Origin: Bryobacterales bacterium
GTDB lineage: Bacteria; Acidobacteriota; Terriglobia; Bryobacterales; Bryobacteraceae
DNA: 64,000 nt
Assembly (NCBI GenBank): GCA_020851655.1
Contig: JADZCI010000247.1
Location: 1-64,000 of the forward strand
Direction of reading: 5' to 3'
In this document: piece after piece, positions 53,958 through 62,603 of the stretch
Layout: each line of letters begins with the position of its first letter
How positions within the stretch are numbered: the stretch's first letter is position 1
Notes under the pieces: generated by a model
What the model saw: only the letters and a program-made list of their open reading frames with translations
Databases searched by the model: none
What the model was told of the DNA's origin: nothing
Program-made: the position numbers and the translations under genes

Positions 53958-54704
53958 CTAGAAGGTCCGGACACCCATCGCGACAATATCGTCGACGCGC
54001 AGGGTCTCCTTCACCACATACGGTTCGCCGTACCGGGCGCCGATCATGTTGCCGTAGAAGCGCGCTATCGAGCGGAGACGGTCGCGGATTTCGTCCTGCT
54101 TGGGAAACAAGGCCGCACCCGCGTCCGTCTCGCCATATTGCGACTCGTAAGCGAACAACGCCTCCATGCGTTGATCGAAGTAAGGCGTAATATCGACGAC
54201 GAACGAGGGAGTTACATTGGCGTAGAGCGAGGCGTAAATGACCTTATGAGGCCGGAACGGCTCCACCGTTTCATCCAACTTCCGCAGACCCGCCAGGAAG
54301 CAGGCTTCGAAACCGATTTGTGACGCGTGGTAGTGGTCCGGATGGCGTGCTTCCCAGTAGGGAAGAATCACGACGCGGGGTTTCACGGCGCGGATGACGC
54401 CCGTGAGGGTCATCTTGAGCCCAAGCGAGTTCTCCAAGCGCGCATCCGGCATCCGCAGGTTCTCGCGAAACGAAAGCCTCATCACTTCAGCCGCGGCGCG
54501 GGCTTCACGCATCCGCAGTTCGGGGTTTCCGCGCGTGCCCATATCTCCCGCGGTCAGGTCCAGGACTCCTGTGCGGTAGCCCATCGCGGCCATTTTCATC
54601 AGCGCGCCGCCGCAGGTCTGCTCGACGTCATCAGGGTGGGCGGCGATGGCCAACACATCGAGGGGACGAACATCAGCCAGGTCCAGGGCAGGTGGGTAGA
54701 ACAT
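53958..54704 (-). CDS. bshB1: BshB1-like GlcNAc-malate deacetylase (PIG-L family)
   Basis: 248 residues of the LmbE/PIG-L metal-dependent family. Metal motif AIAAHPDDVEQTCGGAL near the N-terminus and PYWEARHPDHYHAS are intact. GVLDLTAGDMGTRGNPELRMREA and SFVVDITPYFDQRMEALFAYESQY match BshB1, which makes GlcN-malate for bacillithiol. No bshA or bshC is nearby, so the function in thiol synthesis is a family inference. Its ATG overlaps the rhomboid stop (TAATG). Confidence 0.82.
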   Translation of the reverse strand: MFYPPALDLADVRPLDVLAIAAHPDDVEQTCGGALMKMAAMGYRTGVLDLTAGDMGTRGNPELRMREARAAAEVMRLSFRENLRMPDARLENSLGLKMTLTGVIRAVKPRVVILPYWEARHPDHYHASQIGFEACFLAGLRKLDETVEPFRPHKVIYASLYANVTPSFVVDITPYFDQRMEALFAYESQYGETDAGAALFPKQDEIRDRLRSIARFYGNMIGARYGEPYVVKETLRVDDIVAMGVRTF

Positions 54705-55369
54705 TACCAGGAAAGGTCAGCCCGGCGCTGGTAGCGCGGGCGCGTCTTCAACAGTTTGATGAGAACCATGCCGGCCACGAAACCTCCAATGTGGGCGAAG
54801 AACGCCGTGCCGCCGCGGCTCGCCTGGTAGGAGACCACCGAGCCCACACCGCTGAAAAACTGCAGCACAAACCACATGGCGAGCACGAACACCGCCGGCA
54901 GTTCGATGGTCGTGATGAAGAAGAAGAACACAAGCGTGACAACCCGGGCGTGAGGGAACTTGACCATGTAGGCGCCCATTACGCCCGCAATGGCGCCGCT
55001 GGCGCCGATCATCGGTATCGTGGAGTCCGGATCGATGGCGTACTGCGTCAAGGCGGCGATGATTCCGCAAGCCAGGTAGAAAACGACAAACAGCGGTTTG
55101 CCCAGGATATCTTCGATGTTGTCGCCGAATACCCAAAGAAACAGCATGTTGCCGATGATGTGCATCCAGCCGCCATGCATGAACATCGAGGTGATCAGGG
55201 AGACCGCCGAAAAGTGGTCCGGCACAAAGCCAAACTGGCCAACCAAGAAATTCGATTCGTAGCGGCTCAACGAGATCTGGTAGAGGAATACCAGAGTGTT
55301 GACGATGATGATGGTGAGAACGGCGACCGGCTTTGAGTAACTCGGCTGGGAATCGCGGATCGGTATCAT
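54704..55369 (-). CDS. Rhomboid family intramembrane serine protease
   Basis: 221 residues, six membrane helices. The catalytic Ser is in IGASGAIAGVMGAY and the His in FFAHIGGFVAGM. HGGWMHIIGNMLFLWVFGDNIED is the conserved first loop and helix. It cleaves membrane proteins within the bilayer. It lies between a PfkB kinase and the BshB1-like gene in a tight minus-strand run. Confidence 0.92.
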   Translation of the reverse strand: MIPIRDSQPSYSKPVAVLTIIIVNTLVFLYQISLSRYESNFLVGQFGFVPDHFSAVSLITSMFMHGGWMHIIGNMLFLWVFGDNIEDILGKPLFVVFYLACGIIAALTQYAIDPDSTIPMIGASGAIAGVMGAYMVKFPHARVVTLVFFFFITTIELPAVFVLAMWFVLQFFSGVGSVVSYQASRGGTAFFAHIGGFVAGMVLIKLLKTRPRYQRRADLSW

Positions 55370-55372
55370 CGG

Positions 55373-56320
55373 TCAACTCGTCCGGTAGCGCTGGAACTCC
55401 CGGTTCACGCGGCGCTCGCCGCGGGCAATGAGCGCATCGGCTTCGCCGCGAGGCCGGATCCCTCCCCGGGCGCCCAGGGCCGTGCAGTTGAGCGCGGCCA
55501 TCGCGTTCGAAAATTCGAGTCCCTCCGCCAGGGTCATGCCTTTGACCACAGAGTAACAGAAGGCGCCGTGAAACACGTCTCCAGCGCCCGTTGTGTCGAC
55601 GCAGTTGACCACAAAGGCGGGGGAATAGTGGAACCGGCCGTCTTCCCGGGCCAGCGCGCCCTGCGCGCCAAGCGTCATGGCGGCCACTTTCATTCCGTAG
55701 GTTTCCTGCATCGTCTCCAGCGCCTTACAGGGGTCGCGCTCGCCGGTCCAGCGCTCCGGAAACTCCGAGCTTGTGATCAGGTAGTCGACGTTGGGCAGCA
55801 CCCTTTCAAACCCCTTGTAAATGGTGTCGACATCAACCGTCACCGGAATGTTGTGGGCGCGCGCGATGTGCGCGGCGCGGGCCACCGCCGCCGTGTCGTG
55901 CCCATCGATGTGCAGCAGGGCGGCGCAGGTGATCATCTCCGGAGTGATCTCTTCCGGCTTGAGATGAAGACAGTCGGGCCGGCTCCAGAAAACCGTCCGC
56001 TCGCCCGTTGTTTGATCGATCAGAATGTATGCCGACTGGTTCGGGCAGTTCTTGCGCACCTGCACGTGGTCCAGGTTGATGCCCGTCGTCAGCAGGCTCT
56101 CGCGCTGGATTCTGCCCCGTTCATCGTCACCCATCGTGCCGATGTACTTGGTGCGCAGTCCCAGGGTGGCGCAGGTGACGACGGCGCTGGCGACCTGCCC
56201 GCCCGGACTCAGAATCTCGTCGACAAACGGCACCTTGCCGCCATAAGCGGGAAAGTGCGGGATCAGTAACAGCGTGTCGGTCGCATTGAGACCGACACCA
56301 ACAACGTCGAACTCGGGCAT
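55373..56320 (-). CDS. PfkB family sugar kinase
   Basis: 315 residues, ribokinase fold. Signature 1 region GGQVASAVVTCATLGLRTKYIG and signature 2 DTTGAGDVFHGAFCYSV with the catalytic Asp are present. The substrate could be a sugar, nucleoside or sugar phosphate; nothing in the context decides. It begins at the base after the PHP/esterase stop (TGAATG) and ends three bases before the rhomboid gene. Confidence 0.88.
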   Translation of the reverse strand: MPEFDVVGVGLNATDTLLLIPHFPAYGGKVPFVDEILSPGGQVASAVVTCATLGLRTKYIGTMGDDERGRIQRESLLTTGINLDHVQVRKNCPNQSAYILIDQTTGERTVFWSRPDCLHLKPEEITPEMITCAALLHIDGHDTAAVARAAHIARAHNIPVTVDVDTIYKGFERVLPNVDYLITSSEFPERWTGERDPCKALETMQETYGMKVAAMTLGAQGALAREDGRFHYSPAFVVNCVDTTGAGDVFHGAFCYSVVKGMTLAEGLEFSNAMAALNCTALGARGGIRPRGEADALIARGERRVNREFQRYRTS

Positions 56321-58288
56321 TCAGTTTCCTTCCGCCTGACGCATGCTGCGCAGCATCGCGTTGCTGGTTGCGTCGTTTTCATTCACGATGTGCAGAACCT
56401 CTGAAATATGGTTCTCGCGAGGCACAAAAATCAATTCCGAGCGTGCTCCGGCATCCTTCAGTTTCCGGTGCAGCGCTTCTGCCTGCTGCGGCAGGAACGC
56501 ATAATCCCACTGGCAGTAAGTAATCAGGAAGGGCGGCGCGCCGGCGCCGGCATACTCGATGGGTGAAGCCTGCCTCAGAATCTCCGGTTGCTCGCCGAAC
56601 ACATTGGGAGCTTGAACCTGCAGCGCTCCGGTCAGGTCATAGACGCCGCTGAGCGCCAGAACGCCTCGAATGTCAGCCGGTTTGATTCCGTACGGCGCCA
56701 GCCATTGCGGGTTGAGGCCCAGGCTTGCCGCCAGGTGCCCTCCGGCGGATTGGCCCGACACGTAGATGCGCTGGGGGTTTCCGCCATACTGGGCGATGTT
56801 CTTAAACGTCCATGCCAGCGCCGCGGCAACGTCTTCGAGCTGCGCCGGATGCTTGTGCTTGGGACTGAGGCGGTAGCTGGGCAACACGACAACGTAGCCT
56901 TCCTTGGCAAACCGGTTCGCCAGCGGCGGGTAGAGCTTGCGGTCGCCGCTCTTCCATGCGCCGCCGTGAATAAAGAACAGCACGGGACGCGCGCCGGGAG
57001 ATGAAGGCCGGTAGATGTCCAGCCTGTGCTTCTCCGCGTCGTCTGGGCTGCCCTCGGTGTAGGGGATGTCACGGACCGCCGAGACGCCCGCGGAGAGCTC
57101 CATCGGCGGCAGCTTCAGAACGTCCGGACCCGCCTTCTCGAGGTAGATGGGGTTCGCGTAGATCCACAACCGGGGCTCACCGTCCACCATGAGCCAGACT
57201 TCACTGCGGTAGGCGCCCGGTTCGCGCGCCTGCAACTCGAGACGGCTGGTTGTCCTCTCCTCCAGCAGGGCGCCGTTGCGGAACACTTTGATGATCCCCG
57301 GAAGCGGTGTCCGGACTGTCAGAAGCGTCGAACCAACAATCGGAATCACATCTCCCGCCTCGTAGAGTCCCAAATTGTTGGAGGCCACAAAGGCAAACCC
57401 CGTGGGGTCGCACAGCCAGTCGTGAGATACATAAGCGCGCCCCTCACGCAGCGAGGAAGCGATGCTTTCGGGCGTGAGTTCGCGCGCCAGGATGTGCGTG
57501 CTCAAGTTCCGGAAACTCACCGCGTACGGATCGAGCGTGATCTTCGGCAGCCCGGGCGCAGAAAGGATCGTATTCTGATGAGCGTCGTTGGCGCCGACGC
57601 CGGTAAAGTGGCGCGTACCCAGGATGCGATCCCAATGCTCCAGGTAGAGCGCCCCCGGATCGACTCCGGCCGCAAACACCTCATCGGGGTATTTCTCGAC
57701 CAACGCTGCAAATTCCTTCCAGCGCGCGGGGTCTTTGGCCAGCGCTTTGAGAAACGCAATCAACTCTTTGTCGTCTTCGGCATCCGCATGCCGGTTGTAG
57801 ATCTCCGTACCGTCGAACCCTTCGGCGCCGCGCCCCGGACGCTCCTCCACGTGCGAATGGAACCTCAGACCCGGCGCCGGTTCCGGATAGACGAGCGAAC
57901 CATCCTTTTCCGCGCCCGCCAGGAACAGGACTCCCTCTTTCAGCCCCCGCCACGTTTCCGGCAGCGGACCGTTGTGATCGGAAAACAGGACAATCCGCAC
58001 GCCGGCCAGCTTGGCGGCCGCCAGGACTTCAGCCCGCTTGCCCATTGTGTGAGGCGCGTCCTCGGCATGGACGTGCAGTACCGCGCGATAGTCTGTGTAA
58101 ATGCCCACCGGAGGCAGAGCCTTCCGCTGCCGGGAGAATTCCTCCCGGGCTTTTTGGGTGCTCTCCAGCCGCTCTGGAGTCAGCCGTTCCAGCGCGGTGC
58201 GCTGAGCAGGCTGATTGGGTTGCGCGCCGGCGGCGTGAATCAGCAGGCAAGCAGCGGCCAGCAGTCGAGGGAAGCAACGGACACCCAC
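56321..58288 (-). CDS. Exported bifunctional protein: PHP-like metallohydrolase fused to alpha/beta-hydrolase esterase
   Basis: 655 residues. Signal peptide (CFPRLLAAACLLIHAAGA) at the N-terminus. Residues about 60-380 resemble a PHP-type metal hydrolase: RAVLHVHAEDAPH, IVLFSDHNGPL, GVGANDAHQNT. Residues about 405-655 are a BD-FAE/lipase-like alpha/beta hydrolase with FFIHGGAWKSGDRK oxyanion loop, VSGQSAGGHLAASLG nucleophile Ser, and late CQWDYAFLPQQ and HISEVLH for Asp and His. Both halves look complete. GTG start with a minus-strand TACCCT six bases upstream and no ribosome binding site. Confidence 0.82.
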   Translation of the reverse strand: MGVRCFPRLLAAACLLIHAAGAQPNQPAQRTALERLTPERLESTQKAREEFSRQRKALPPVGIYTDYRAVLHVHAEDAPHTMGKRAEVLAAAKLAGVRIVLFSDHNGPLPETWRGLKEGVLFLAGAEKDGSLVYPEPAPGLRFHSHVEERPGRGAEGFDGTEIYNRHADAEDDKELIAFLKALAKDPARWKEFAALVEKYPDEVFAAGVDPGALYLEHWDRILGTRHFTGVGANDAHQNTILSAPGLPKITLDPYAVSFRNLSTHILARELTPESIASSLREGRAYVSHDWLCDPTGFAFVASNNLGLYEAGDVIPIVGSTLLTVRTPLPGIIKVFRNGALLEERTTSRLELQAREPGAYRSEVWLMVDGEPRLWIYANPIYLEKAGPDVLKLPPMELSAGVSAVRDIPYTEGSPDDAEKHRLDIYRPSSPGARPVLFFIHGGAWKSGDRKLYPPLANRFAKEGYVVVLPSYRLSPKHKHPAQLEDVAAALAWTFKNIAQYGGNPQRIYVSGQSAGGHLAASLGLNPQWLAPYGIKPADIRGVLALSGVYDLTGALQVQAPNVFGEQPEILRQASPIEYAGAGAPPFLITYCQWDYAFLPQQAEALHRKLKDAGARSELIFVPRENHISEVLHIVNENDATSNAMLRSMRQAEGN

Positions 58289-58294
58289 ATTGTC

Positions 58295-58300
58295 AGGGTA
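58295..58300 (-). promoter_or_regulatory. Candidate -10 element (TACCCT) of the PHP/esterase gene
   Basis: Minus-strand TACCCT ends six bases before GTG 58288. No Shine-Dalgarno sequence lies between. Confidence 0.35.
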
Positions 58301-58326
58301 AAGGAATTCGCCAGGGCGAGAGGAGA

Positions 58327-58893
58327 CTACAGCGAGCCCATCTGGTAGACGTAGATCGTGTACTTGCGGTGGTGTGCCTCATATTGCTCCACCGCCTTCG
58401 GCTTCCATCCGCGGACTTTGAAATCGAGCGACACGACGCGCGAGCCGGGCTTCAGTTCCCGCTCGAGCTTGGGACGGAGTTGGTCGTTCGCCTCGGTGAT
58501 GAGATATAGCGCGACGACATTGGCGGGCGCGACGTCCACAGTCATCATGTCGCCCTGAATCACAGTCACGTTCTCCGCCACGCCTTGCTTCTGAGCTTCG
58601 GCGCGAGCTCTCCTGACTAGTGACTCGGAGAGTTCAACTCCGACGGCCTTGGCCGAGAACCTCTTTGCCGCCGCAACGAGGATTCGCCCATCACCGCATC
58701 CCAAGTCGTACACGGTCTCGCCGGGCTTGACTTTGGCCAGTTCCAGCATCCTCTCGACGACTGCTTGGGGTGACTGAACGTACGGGGCCAGTTTCTTGGC
58801 CATCAGGTCCGGCGTGCGCATACCGGTCTGCGCCCAGCCGGAAACACCGCACACGGCCGTAGCGATTCCGAGACCCAAACTGAAGCGATACAT
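58327..58893 (-). CDS. FAM173-like class I SAM methyltransferase with N-terminal signal or anchor segment
   Basis: 188 residues. Residues 1-22 (YRFSLGLGIATAVCGVSGWAQ) look like a signal peptide or membrane anchor. The methyltransferase part begins YVQSPQAVVERMLELAKVKPGETVYDLGCGDGRILVAAAKRF and continues VGVELSESLVRRAR, VALYLITEANDQLRPKLEREL, which matches the FAM173/ATPSc-KMT lysine methyltransferase family. Mitochondrial relatives methylate a lysine of ATP synthase c or the ADP/ATP carrier. A bacterial membrane-facing target is inferred. It follows the upstream gene by three bases. Confidence 0.8.
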   Translation of the reverse strand: MYRFSLGLGIATAVCGVSGWAQTGMRTPDLMAKKLAPYVQSPQAVVERMLELAKVKPGETVYDLGCGDGRILVAAAKRFSAKAVGVELSESLVRRARAEAQKQGVAENVTVIQGDMMTVDVAPANVVALYLITEANDQLRPKLERELKPGSRVVSLDFKVRGWKPKAVEQYEAHHRKYTIYVYQMGSL

Positions 58894-58896
58894 AAC

Positions 58897-60165
58897 TCAG
58901 TCCAGAGCCGCCGTTGTGGAGCGCCTCGCTGATTTAAATCTTACAATCTTTGACATCATTTCCGTGACCGCAAACCACACATCGCGCGGCCGCGAAATTG
59001 TAAACTCTTGTCCCTTGAAATGTTTTACCGCGGCGCTGATGGAGTCGCGCCAGGGAGTCGCTTGAGGAAACAAGTTGTAGTTCATGTAGAAAATGGGGTA
59101 TTCCGGTTCGCCCACCTTCCTGAGCACATCCACCGACAGGTTCTCGTCGAGCATCGCTTTCGGGCCGGCGAAGATCACCGCATCCGGCCGCTCTGAGGCT
59201 GAGGCGCCGACCTCTTTGACCAGCAGGTCGGCCAGGAACTCCGTGTCGGCTCCCTTTTGATTGAGCCGGGTGAAGTCGACCTTGCCCAACTGCAGTCCGC
59301 GCAGGGCATCGCCGATCGCGGGAAAATCGATGCGGTCTGCTGCTTCCTGGCGATACAAGATCTTTTGTTCCTTTAAGTTAAAAGCTACCAACGAGAAAGT
59401 CGAAATCCTGGGATCTCGAGCTATGCACCGCAGTATCGACACTAATGCGGACGTGTCCAGCGGCTGTAGGGTTGCGGCCCGGGAGTTCTGTGGCGCAAAG
59501 TTGATCAAGACCTTCACGTTGAGCGGGGCATCCGACACGGTGCGCTTGACCGGTGGTTCGTCGACGAATTGTTCCACTTCGGTCGCGGCCACCTCCCCGG
59601 GACGAAGGTTCACGTTTACCTGTTTGTCTTTCGACGGCAGCGCCGCCTCGGCATCCCAGAACTGCGCGCACACGCGTTCGCTGCGGTCTCGCATGAGCCA
59701 GTCCACCTTGTAGTTGCCCTCGCCCAGGTCAAACGTCCCTTGCAAGTAAGCGTCTCCCTTAGCGTCGTCGGGCAGCGTGGGGACCTTGGTCCTCTGAACG
59801 AGATAAGTTGCGTGGCCGGGCGAGGCGGCTGGGGTGATCCTCAGAATAATGGTGAGCAGGTTCTCGCTGCCCGCCAATTCCCGGAGCGGCACTGAGATCT
59901 CGAATCCGGCGTGAAACTTCAGGTCGAATCCGAGGATTGGCTTAGTCGGTGAAACCTCGCACGGAAGGTCCTTCCGGATCTCCTTGGCCTCCAGGACGGC
60001 CAGGTCGGTGCCGACAACCGTCGGCGGTCCGCCATCGCTTCCCCTAAGGATGGTCTGGGCTTGCCCCGAGACCGCAAGCAACCCGAGGAGCGGCAGGAGC
60101 CCAACCGGGCTGCCCGCCCGAGCTTTCCATACCTCGAGAAGCGTTTTGAACTTTCCTGTTCTCAT
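58897..60165 (-). CDS. Exported protein of unknown function, acidobacterial type
   Basis: About 422 residues from ATG 60165; the frame is open to 60270 but the first 35 residues there are not family-like. A signal segment ending GLLAVSGQAQ follows a basic start. No enzyme motif is seen; the C-terminal 200 residues (SILRCIARDPRISTFSLVAFNL, AVIFAGPKAMLDENLSVDV, FTISRPRDVWFAVTEMMSKIV) resemble a von Willebrand A-like alpha/beta domain without a clear metal site. First gene of the minus-strand run to 53958. Confidence 0.6.
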   Translation of the reverse strand: MRTGKFKTLLEVWKARAGSPVGLLPLLGLLAVSGQAQTILRGSDGGPPTVVGTDLAVLEAKEIRKDLPCEVSPTKPILGFDLKFHAGFEISVPLRELAGSENLLTIILRITPAASPGHATYLVQRTKVPTLPDDAKGDAYLQGTFDLGEGNYKVDWLMRDRSERVCAQFWDAEAALPSKDKQVNVNLRPGEVAATEVEQFVDEPPVKRTVSDAPLNVKVLINFAPQNSRAATLQPLDTSALVSILRCIARDPRISTFSLVAFNLKEQKILYRQEAADRIDFPAIGDALRGLQLGKVDFTRLNQKGADTEFLADLLVKEVGASASERPDAVIFAGPKAMLDENLSVDVLRKVGEPEYPIFYMNYNLFPQATPWRDSISAAVKHFKGQEFTISRPRDVWFAVTEMMSKIVRFKSARRSTTAALD

Positions 60166-60341
60166 CTTCCCGTCACTCTTCGACCAGTATTTTACTCCTC
60201 CGCGCGGACGATCAGGGGACAAGCCACCCGTGTGTTCGCCCGCGAGGGGCATAGAGGGATCATGCGGCAAACCGCGGAGAGTTGCAAGTGTTTCGCGTGT
60301 GTACGGGCGGCACAGTGGTCCTATGCCGCCCAGCGGCCCGG

Positions 60342-60928: not shown

Positions 60929-62603
60929 ATGCGTGCCGCGGCCCTTGCGCTGACTTGCGCCCTCTTAGCCCCCCTGCTTGCTCAGGACCCTGTTGTCATC
61001 CGCGTGGATCTTGACGCGCGCCGGCGCCCGTTCCCGCCGGTGTGGGCCTACTTCGGCTACGACGAGCCGAACTACACCTATATGCCTCACGCGCGGAAAC
61101 TGATTCAGGAACTCGCCGCGGCGAGCCGCGCGCCCGTTTTCTTTCGGACTCACAACCTGCTCACCACAGGCGACGGTACGCCTGCCCTGAAATGGGGCTC
61201 AACCAACGCCTACACCGAAGACGCCCAGGGCCGGCCGGTGTACGACTGGACCATCGTCGATCGCATCATTGACACATACTTGTCCGCCGGCGCCAAACCG
61301 TTCGTCGAGATCGGCTTTATGCCTCAGGCCATGTCCGTGAACCCACGGCCGTACCGGCACAACTGGACGCCCGGCGATTCGTACTCGTCCATCTACACGG
61401 GCTGGGCGCATCCGCCGAAGGACTATGCCAAATGGGAGGAACTGGTCCGGCAATGGGTCCGGCACAGCGCCGGGAAGTATGGCCGGCGGGAGGTCGAGAG
61501 CTGGTATTGGGAGGTGTGGAACGAACCGGATATCGCCTACTGGAAGGGGACTCCCGGACAGTTCAACCAACTCTACGATCATGCCGCCAAGGCGGTCAAG
61601 GAAGTCCTGCCACGGGCGCGAGTCGGCGGACCCGCGACTACCGGTCCGGCGAGCCCCAAGGCGGCGGCGTTCCTCAGGCAGTTTCTGGAACACTGTGCCT
61701 CAGGTCGAAACTACGCTACCGGACTGACCGGCTCTCCGTTGGACTTCGTCACGTTTCACGCCAAGGGAGCGCCGACAGCCGTCGATGGGCATGTGCGCAT
61801 GGGAATGGCCCGAAATCTCGCCGACGTCGCCCGGGGCTACGAAATCGTCGCCGCATTCCCGAAATTCAAGCGGCTTCCCATCATTTTTGAGCGAGGCCGA
61901 CCCGGAAGGCTGCGCCGCTTGCTCCGCGCGTGTCTATCCGCGGAACACCTATCGCAATGGCACGATGTATCCCACCTACACGGCAGTGCTGATGAAGCAC
62001 GTCCTGGGACTCGCGGAGCGCTATGGGGTCAACGTTGAAGGGATGTTGTCGTGGTCCTTCGAGTTCGAGGGTCAGCCTTACTTTGACGGCTTCCGCTCCC
62101 TGGCTACAAACGGCATCGGCAAGCCGGTTCTGAACCTGTTCCGGATGGCTGGCCTCATGAACGGCGAGTTGGTGGGCGTGGAAAGTACCGGCGCCGCCGG
62201 TATTGACCGGATCCTCGCTTCCGGCATCGGAGGTAACGGCGACATCGACGCGCTGGCAACGCGTACCACTCAAAGCGCGGCAATCCTTCTGTGGAACTAC
62301 CACGACGATAGCGTCCCCGCACCCGCTGCCGCGGTGCGCGTCCAGGTGGCCGCCTTGCCGCGGGAGGCTCGCGCGCTGCTCACCCACTACCGCATCGACC
62401 GCGACCACAGTAATGCATACACCCTTTGGAAGAACATCGGCTCGCCTCAACAACCGTCGCCGCAACAATACTCGCTCCTCGAGGCGGCCGGGCAATTGCA
62501 GTTGATGGAATCGCCTCGATGGGTGACCGCCAGGCAAGGGACGATCGACATCGACATGAATCTCCCCCGCCATTCCGTCTCCCTGCTGCTCGCTTCCTGG
62601 TAG
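60929..62603 (+). pseudogene. Family 39-like glycoside hydrolase split by a frameshift
   Basis: Two frames together make one exported glycosidase of about 558 codons. Frame one (60929 to stop near 62038) has a signal peptide (ALALTCALLAPLLA) and the acid/base site WYWEVWNEPD near 196. Similarity then jumps at a T5 run (61884-61888) to another frame that continues SEADPEGCAACSARVYPRNTYR, carrying the likely nucleophile Glu, and runs to 62603. Removing one T restores IILSEADP. Family members are beta-xylosidase-like. It could be a real mutation, a slippage site or a homopolymer sequencing error. Confidence 0.8.

Follow-up and report, generated by a model that had tools for sequence, protein, structure and literature searches.

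The window, the whole 64,000-nucleotide stretch of Bryobacterales DNA analysed here, carries a gene with a single open reading frame of 655 codons (GTG start, TGA stop) that joins a PHP-like metallohydrolase domain to a carboxylesterase domain (Table 1). Full-length homologues with 48-58% identity occur in 22 further Bryobacteraceae genomes, and two more are cut by contig ends; the architecture and conserved sites of the fusion protein are evident from the frame and the alignments. The whole-chain fold model is confident and forms a single body (pLDDT 94.4, pTM 0.92). Because esterases fill the list returned by a fold search with the whole chain, that search is uninformative on the N-terminal half, which was therefore folded alone. 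A promoter scan found one promoter-like site against 1.4 expected, and a terminator scan found 12 terminator-like sites against 5.9 expected (sd 2.4), mostly inside genes.

Table 1. Features of the fusion gene and its neighbours in the window
Feature	Positions	Strand	Basis
BshB1-type bacillithiol deacetylase gene	53958..54704	-	conserved operon neighbour
Rhomboid protease gene	54704..55369	-	conserved operon neighbour
PfkB-family sugar kinase gene, ATG directly after the fusion stop	55373..56320	-	conserved downstream neighbour
PHP-esterase fusion gene	56321..58288	-	open reading frame and translation; homologues
Predicted BD-FAE-type alpha/beta-hydrolase esterase, residues 400-655	56324..57091	-	Pfam; 4zrs fold match; alignment
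Beta-sandwich (Ig-like) between the catalytic domains, residues ~299-385	57134..57394	-	DSSP strands; weak matches to Ig-like chains (Z ~4)
Predicted PHP-fold metallohydrolase core, residues ~30-300	57389..58201	-	AlphaFold2 model and fold search
Candidate metal ligands	57578..58075	-	alignments; motifs I-III against E. coli YcdX, weak (E 0.0073)
Signal-peptide-like leader, residues 1-22	58223..58288	-	by eye; homologues with similar hydrophobic leaders
SAM methyltransferase-like protein gene, with signal-like leader	58327..58893	-	conserved upstream neighbour
Gene for a protein without a Pfam or NCBIfam match	58897..60270	-	conserved upstream neighbour

The two catalytic halves

Proteins of the PHP superfamily are described as carrying four motifs with His and Asp metal ligands (PMC10816263). 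The candidate ligands of the window N-domain are H72 and H74 (motif I), D104-H105 (II), E127 (III), H146, E162, H167, and D235 with H237 (IV, as NDAH); in an alignment of eight N-domains, invariant His/Asp/Glu positions follow the order seen in PHP proteins, and all four motifs (HxH, DH, E and DxH) are conserved. The window N-domain alone has no Pfam match at E 1, the PHP model PF02811 included, and four of the eight aligned members match PF02811 at E 1 or better (best 3.4e-4). The best named profile is NCBIfam CehA/McbA (NF038032), which all eight members match at E 1 or better (best 6.8e-17); scores fall below its curated cut-off of 80 bits for the window N-domain (E 9.6e-7, 28.5 bits), the whole window protein (25.8 bits) and five relatives (34-48 bits). 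The named members of that family are described as carbaryl or carbamate hydrolases with important histidines, which in McbA lie in a predicted PHP-like domain (PMC8292978); the domain described here differs in being fused to an esterase. A PDB profile search aligns motifs I-III to YcdX (E 0.0073) and motifs I-II to the histidinol phosphatase HPP of Thermus thermophilus (0.025), both weak matches.

The AlphaFold2 model of the N-domain, built from 42 sequences, has a mean pLDDT of 94.0 and a pTM of 0.93, and its top structural matches are PHP proteins: 3e38 (BVU_3505; Z 12.9 over 219 residues at 6.9 Å), 2anu (TM0559; Z 12.2 over 160 residues at 2.6 Å), 7rty (Z 11.0) and 5zb8 (Z 10.7), with weaker PHP entries at Z 5.8-7.8; these are followed by Ig-like chains that fit the beta-sandwich. 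As modelled, the N-terminal half has a PHP fold, a distorted alpha/beta barrel. Both 3e38 and 2anu share this fold with the N-domain at 17-19% identity over the aligned part and are predicted phosphoesterases; 3e38 is by its title also a two-domain PHP protein, and neither title names an esterase domain. The conserved sites suggest that the N-terminal half probably binds metal and acts as a hydrolase in the window organism.

All Pfam matches of the window protein lie in the C-terminal half, which matches BD-FAE (PF20434; E 1.5e-34, 119.8 bits, cut-off 26.8) and Abhydrolase_3 (PF07859; E 6.7e-27, 95.1 bits, cut-off 25). Alignment places the triad at Ser514, Asp595 and His627 and an HGG motif at 441-443; all 27 aligned rows long enough to cover the triad, that of the window among them, have it, and HGGAW at 441-445 is presumably the oxyanion-hole motif. 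The closest fold match is the feruloyl esterase 4zrs (Z 31.7, 28% identity), a protein of 292 residues that matches the esterase half and leaves the PHP core of the window protein unmatched. This half folds like feruloyl and other carbohydrate esterases and like kynurenine formamidase, a range that does not fix the substrate; we infer a serine esterase of the BD-FAE type, active as such.

These results bear out part of the original prediction, which had described a PHP-like metallohydrolase and a carboxylesterase in a single exported chain, the metal site being distinct from the Ser/Asp/His site. The single frame, the PHP fold model and the Pfam matches support the two domains, the metal ligands and the triad are both conserved in the alignments, and the signal-like leader, read by eye, makes export probable. 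Among the Pfam and NCBIfam models matched, none covers both halves, and an annotated architecture of this order was not met there.

One fused clade and its gene neighbourhood

When genome contigs were scanned with the alignment of N-domains, 239 of 290 pattern hits were confirmed; the best 80 of the 239 comprise 28 loci fused to an esterase (27 clear, and L065 cut by a contig end) and 52 unfused loci, the latter with no esterase homologue at E 1e-5 in the other frames of the surrounding DNA examined. These 80 loci overlap with the set of 237 genomes considered below, and counts from the two are not additive. Up to residue 237, the ligand variants among the window and the 28 fused rows are limited to H72Y in L058 and H146Q in L056, with four sites missing from the table for L068, which starts in another frame; among the 52 unfused rows, D104 is replaced by N in three and D169 by E in one. 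Two spacings set the groups apart: from NDxH to DPY, the window and all 28 fused proteins have 10-15 residues and all 52 unfused ones have 48-56, and from Glu127 to His146 the figures are 18-28 against 37-45. Fused N-domains are thus shorter by about 40 residues next to metal motif IV.

In a maximum-likelihood tree the 29 fused N-domains lie on a single branch (support 100/99), which adjoins a standalone protein from the same order (L082); within this sample, the alignment-based tree yields one fused clade. Fusions occur in Bryobacteraceae and Verrucomicrobiota, the ten verrucomicrobial ones nested within the acidobacterial ones and showing one ligand substitution (H146Q in L056), with L068 incomplete. 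Some organism labels of MAGs in this set are doubtful, namely 'Acidimicrobiia' for L051 and perhaps 'Akkermansia muciniphila' for L061.

The gene order in Bryobacteraceae runs from the protein without a family through the methyltransferase-like gene, the fusion, the PfkB kinase and the rhomboid protease to BshB1. Among the 19 non-verrucomicrobial fused loci, both upstream genes are present in 17 and the kinase, 70-81% identical to that of the window, lies downstream in 13; of the six loci without it, three have short flanks (L043, L054, L065) and three have long ones (L051, L062, L063). None of the ten verrucomicrobial loci has the Bryobacteraceae neighbours in the flanking DNA examined. Outside Bryobacteraceae, conserved neighbours that would name a substrate are absent from the best 8 (verrucomicrobial) and best 14 (unfused) clusters: beside the verrucomicrobial fusions no family except the fusion is common to more than two loci, and beside the 52 unfused loci the biggest cluster apart from the gene (7 loci) is, at least in the member shown, a frame on the reverse strand of that gene, and the one after it (5 loci) comes from close relatives.

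Several minor features accompany this neighbourhood. The closest NCBIfam model to the product of the methyltransferase-like gene is an archaeal protein-lysine N-methyltransferase (157.7 bits, cut-off 200), and its signal-like leader, read by eye, is odd for a SAM enzyme. In G434 (L044/L158) a single open frame of 985 codons takes in both the methyltransferase-like gene and the fusion, possibly a triple fusion or a read-through of the gap. The conserved order in the window (53958-60270) is accompanied by a divergent SSB gene. On the forward strand, the frames 60929-62038 and 61785-62603 overlap and match positions 62-268 and 278-455 of a glycosyl hydrolase 39 profile; because they match successive parts of the profile, one GH39 gene appears to be split by a frameshift.

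Repeated erosion of the PHP half in Bryobacteraceae

A family search of 237 Bryobacteraceae genomes, in which the best five candidates per genome were scored, gave matches at E 1e-40 or better in 43: the gene itself in 39, and in four (G398-G401) more distant esterases from outside the fused clade. The N-domain is full length in 25 of the 39 genomes (in two of which a contig end truncates the esterase), eroded in 11, and absent in three that keep the esterase. Twelve positions were tabulated (72, 74, 77, 80, 104, 105, 127, 146, 162, 167, 235 and 237), and all twelve are kept in 22 of the 25 full-length genomes. The other three carry ligand changes: H72Y in G479, H72L with H74R in G139, and six changes (H72D, H74R, H80Q, H167R, D235E, H237R) in G440, where the domain is still nearly full length. 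Of the stretch from residue 60 to residue 258, 58-149 residues remain in the eroded forms, compared with 187-203 in the 25 full-length genomes (the cut row L068 aside); by eye, the N-terminal helix is kept in 10 of the 11, and the proteins are kept from about residue 258 on, with the beta-sandwich and the esterase.

All three triad residues of the esterase are kept in 36 of the 38 genomes that could be read, a count that omits G276 (esterase cut by a contig end) and a second copy in G375 (L142) and takes two contig pieces of G012 as one gene. The two losses, Ser514 to Ala in G445 (L134:5672-7375) and Asp595 to Ala in G381 (L141:6650-8050), may be real or MAG errors; since most of the sequences are MAGs, single substitutions can be errors. 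One genome counted among the 22 by its ligands (G158, L155), a single-contig assembly, has an in-frame TAA between the leader and the N-domain, so that its gene may be broken; the remaining fusion sites are intact.

Eroded genes largely stay in place: 10 of the 11 adjoin the methyltransferase or kinase gene (the exception is G143), all three esterase-only genes adjoin the methyltransferase gene, and in G005 the order is intact through BshB1 with the N-domain alone absent. These shared neighbours indicate the same gene in place rather than unrelated esterases; the second, esterase-only copy in G375 has none of them. A standalone PHP protein that might compensate for erosion was sought with the G031 protein as query (E 1e-25) and rejected: 30 of the 237 genomes match, 29 of them only at the fusion or its remnant. 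The separate copy, a standalone protein of the long type, is found in G031 itself (L031/L167) together with a heavily eroded fusion.

The number of losses was estimated from two trees. The tree of the beta-sandwich and esterase (31 intact and 12 lost rows; 11 rows omitted as long-branched, second-copy, esterase-only, cut or outgroup) requires four changes of label, three of them forced by well-supported branches; the tree of the esterase region alone, which takes in the outgroup, the esterase-only rows and the long-branched G031, requires seven, five of them so forced. In an earlier tree with fewer rows, eroded rows likewise lie among intact ones. Changes of label are taken as losses because a metal site of many ligands is unlikely to be regained; one intact row (L143) sits among lost rows in the beta-sandwich and esterase tree, and part of the tally may therefore reflect regain or exchange instead. 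By alignment and gene order, the PHP half has eroded repeatedly in Bryobacteraceae while the esterase has been retained.

Coupling of the halves and the fate of the metal site

The observations are jointly best explained, with a probability of about 0.6, by an exported two-module hydrolase with the esterase as the core that is kept and the PHP half as a second, repeatedly lost activity, the two being loosely coupled. Selection would keep the esterase activity of Ser514, Asp595 and His627; the PHP half would be a dispensable hydrolase of a phosphoester, or of a carbamate or carboxylic ester as in CehA/McbA, and the beta-sandwich would join the two catalytic modules. The fusion would have arisen once from a standalone PHP protein, with loss of the roughly 40 residues beside motif IV; afterwards, within Bryobacteraceae, repeated loss of the metal site would have left a shrunken remnant in some genomes and nothing in others. 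Loose coupling is what the pattern of losses suggests. Against this reading, the ligands are kept in 22 of 25 full-length genomes and the verrucomicrobial fusions are nearly unchanged, so that the PHP site appears to be under selection in most lineages and may be needed there together with the esterase; nor is the esterase itself untouchable, as read from the triad changes in G445 and G381.

It is possible, if tentative, that the esterase fills the place of the motif-IV loop, which would make the fusion a composite enzyme, and that the metal site has been switched off repeatedly and independently in Bryobacteraceae with the remnant staying as a non-catalytic helper. The series would then be graded, beginning with point changes of ligands (G139, G440), passing to shrunken pseudo-domains (11 genomes) and ending in absence (3 genomes), so that within a single gene a metalloenzyme would have become an accessory domain more than once. 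Selection on the remnant bears on this as well as on the doubtful proposal that the PHP domain serves the esterase mainly as a platform, whether structural or regulatory, its metal site mattering little even when intact. Ratios of dN/dS were estimated for 14 pairs (L048/L049 gave no value) and are rough, since several pairs are saturated at silent sites. In intact pairs the PHP core has 0.08-0.23 in 8 of 10, values indicative of purifying selection. The remnant core of the closest eroded pair (L125/L126) has 0.17, equal to its esterase, as a platform would predict; in three distant eroded pairs, near saturation, the remnant has 0.35-0.71, above the 0.15 and 0.22 of their esterases where computable, which speaks against strong constraint. 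The remnant is thus relaxed over long spans and not free in the close pair, so it may have a structural role.

A precedent for such a platform is the alpha subunit of E. coli DNA polymerase III, whose PHP domain is described as having lost its metal ligands and staying for stability (PMC3666897). The structure of that domain is conserved, whereas in the present family much of the core shrinks, and the partner is a probably exported esterase. The near-invariance of the ligands in the 28 fused and 52 unfused loci also counts against a metal site of little importance; reduction to 58-149 residues is more than a pure scaffold should bear, and in three genomes the esterase persists although the N-domain is gone.

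An obligatory two-step enzyme, in which a single substrate would lose one group to the PHP half and then another to the esterase, is unlikely. It would accord with a fusion kept across two phyla, with the retention of every tabulated ligand in most full-length genomes and with the confident single-body model. Against it, 14 of 39 genomes have an eroded metal site or no domain while the esterase stays, three more have substituted ligands, and a standalone N-domain relative that could substitute (E 1e-25) is present in one genome of 237, G031. Because one step is lost so often while the triad stays complete in 36 of 38, the obligatory reaction is unsupported; for the same reason the original prediction of successive action by the two halves on a shared substrate is not supported as it was put. 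An assembly or gene-calling artefact joining two neighbouring genes can be dismissed: a few MAG rows are truncated or have a broken frame (L043, L065, L068), but nothing points that way for the window, and full-length frames with the joint at the same place recur in many separate assemblies.

A two-module hydrolase with a dispensable PHP half therefore remains the preferred reading. Fusions of two enzymes are usually taken to couple their reactions, and this family offers a repeated natural deletion experiment in which one partner is lost and the other persists, for the most part within an unchanged operon. Homologues of every stage are available; they would allow a test of coupling in fused hydrolases and of what a dead metal domain does for its partner, and the family forms a natural series for the change from enzyme to non-enzyme.

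Among the literature matches listed, no title or abstract opening names a PHP-esterase fusion, most subscription papers being outside the scope of that search. The fusion is of a known kind, a hydrolase joined to an esterase, with an unusual evolutionary history. The BD-FAE proteins and 4zrs resemble the esterase half, down to the triad and HGG motif of the window protein, and the bifunctional GH43-CE protein 6mly likewise has an esterase of this fold behind another hydrolase in one chain, its partner being a glycoside hydrolase rather than a PHP domain. In another acidobacterial family, a related esterase occurs twice, fused in tandem within one frame (L128:1993-3810, L129:1893-3824).
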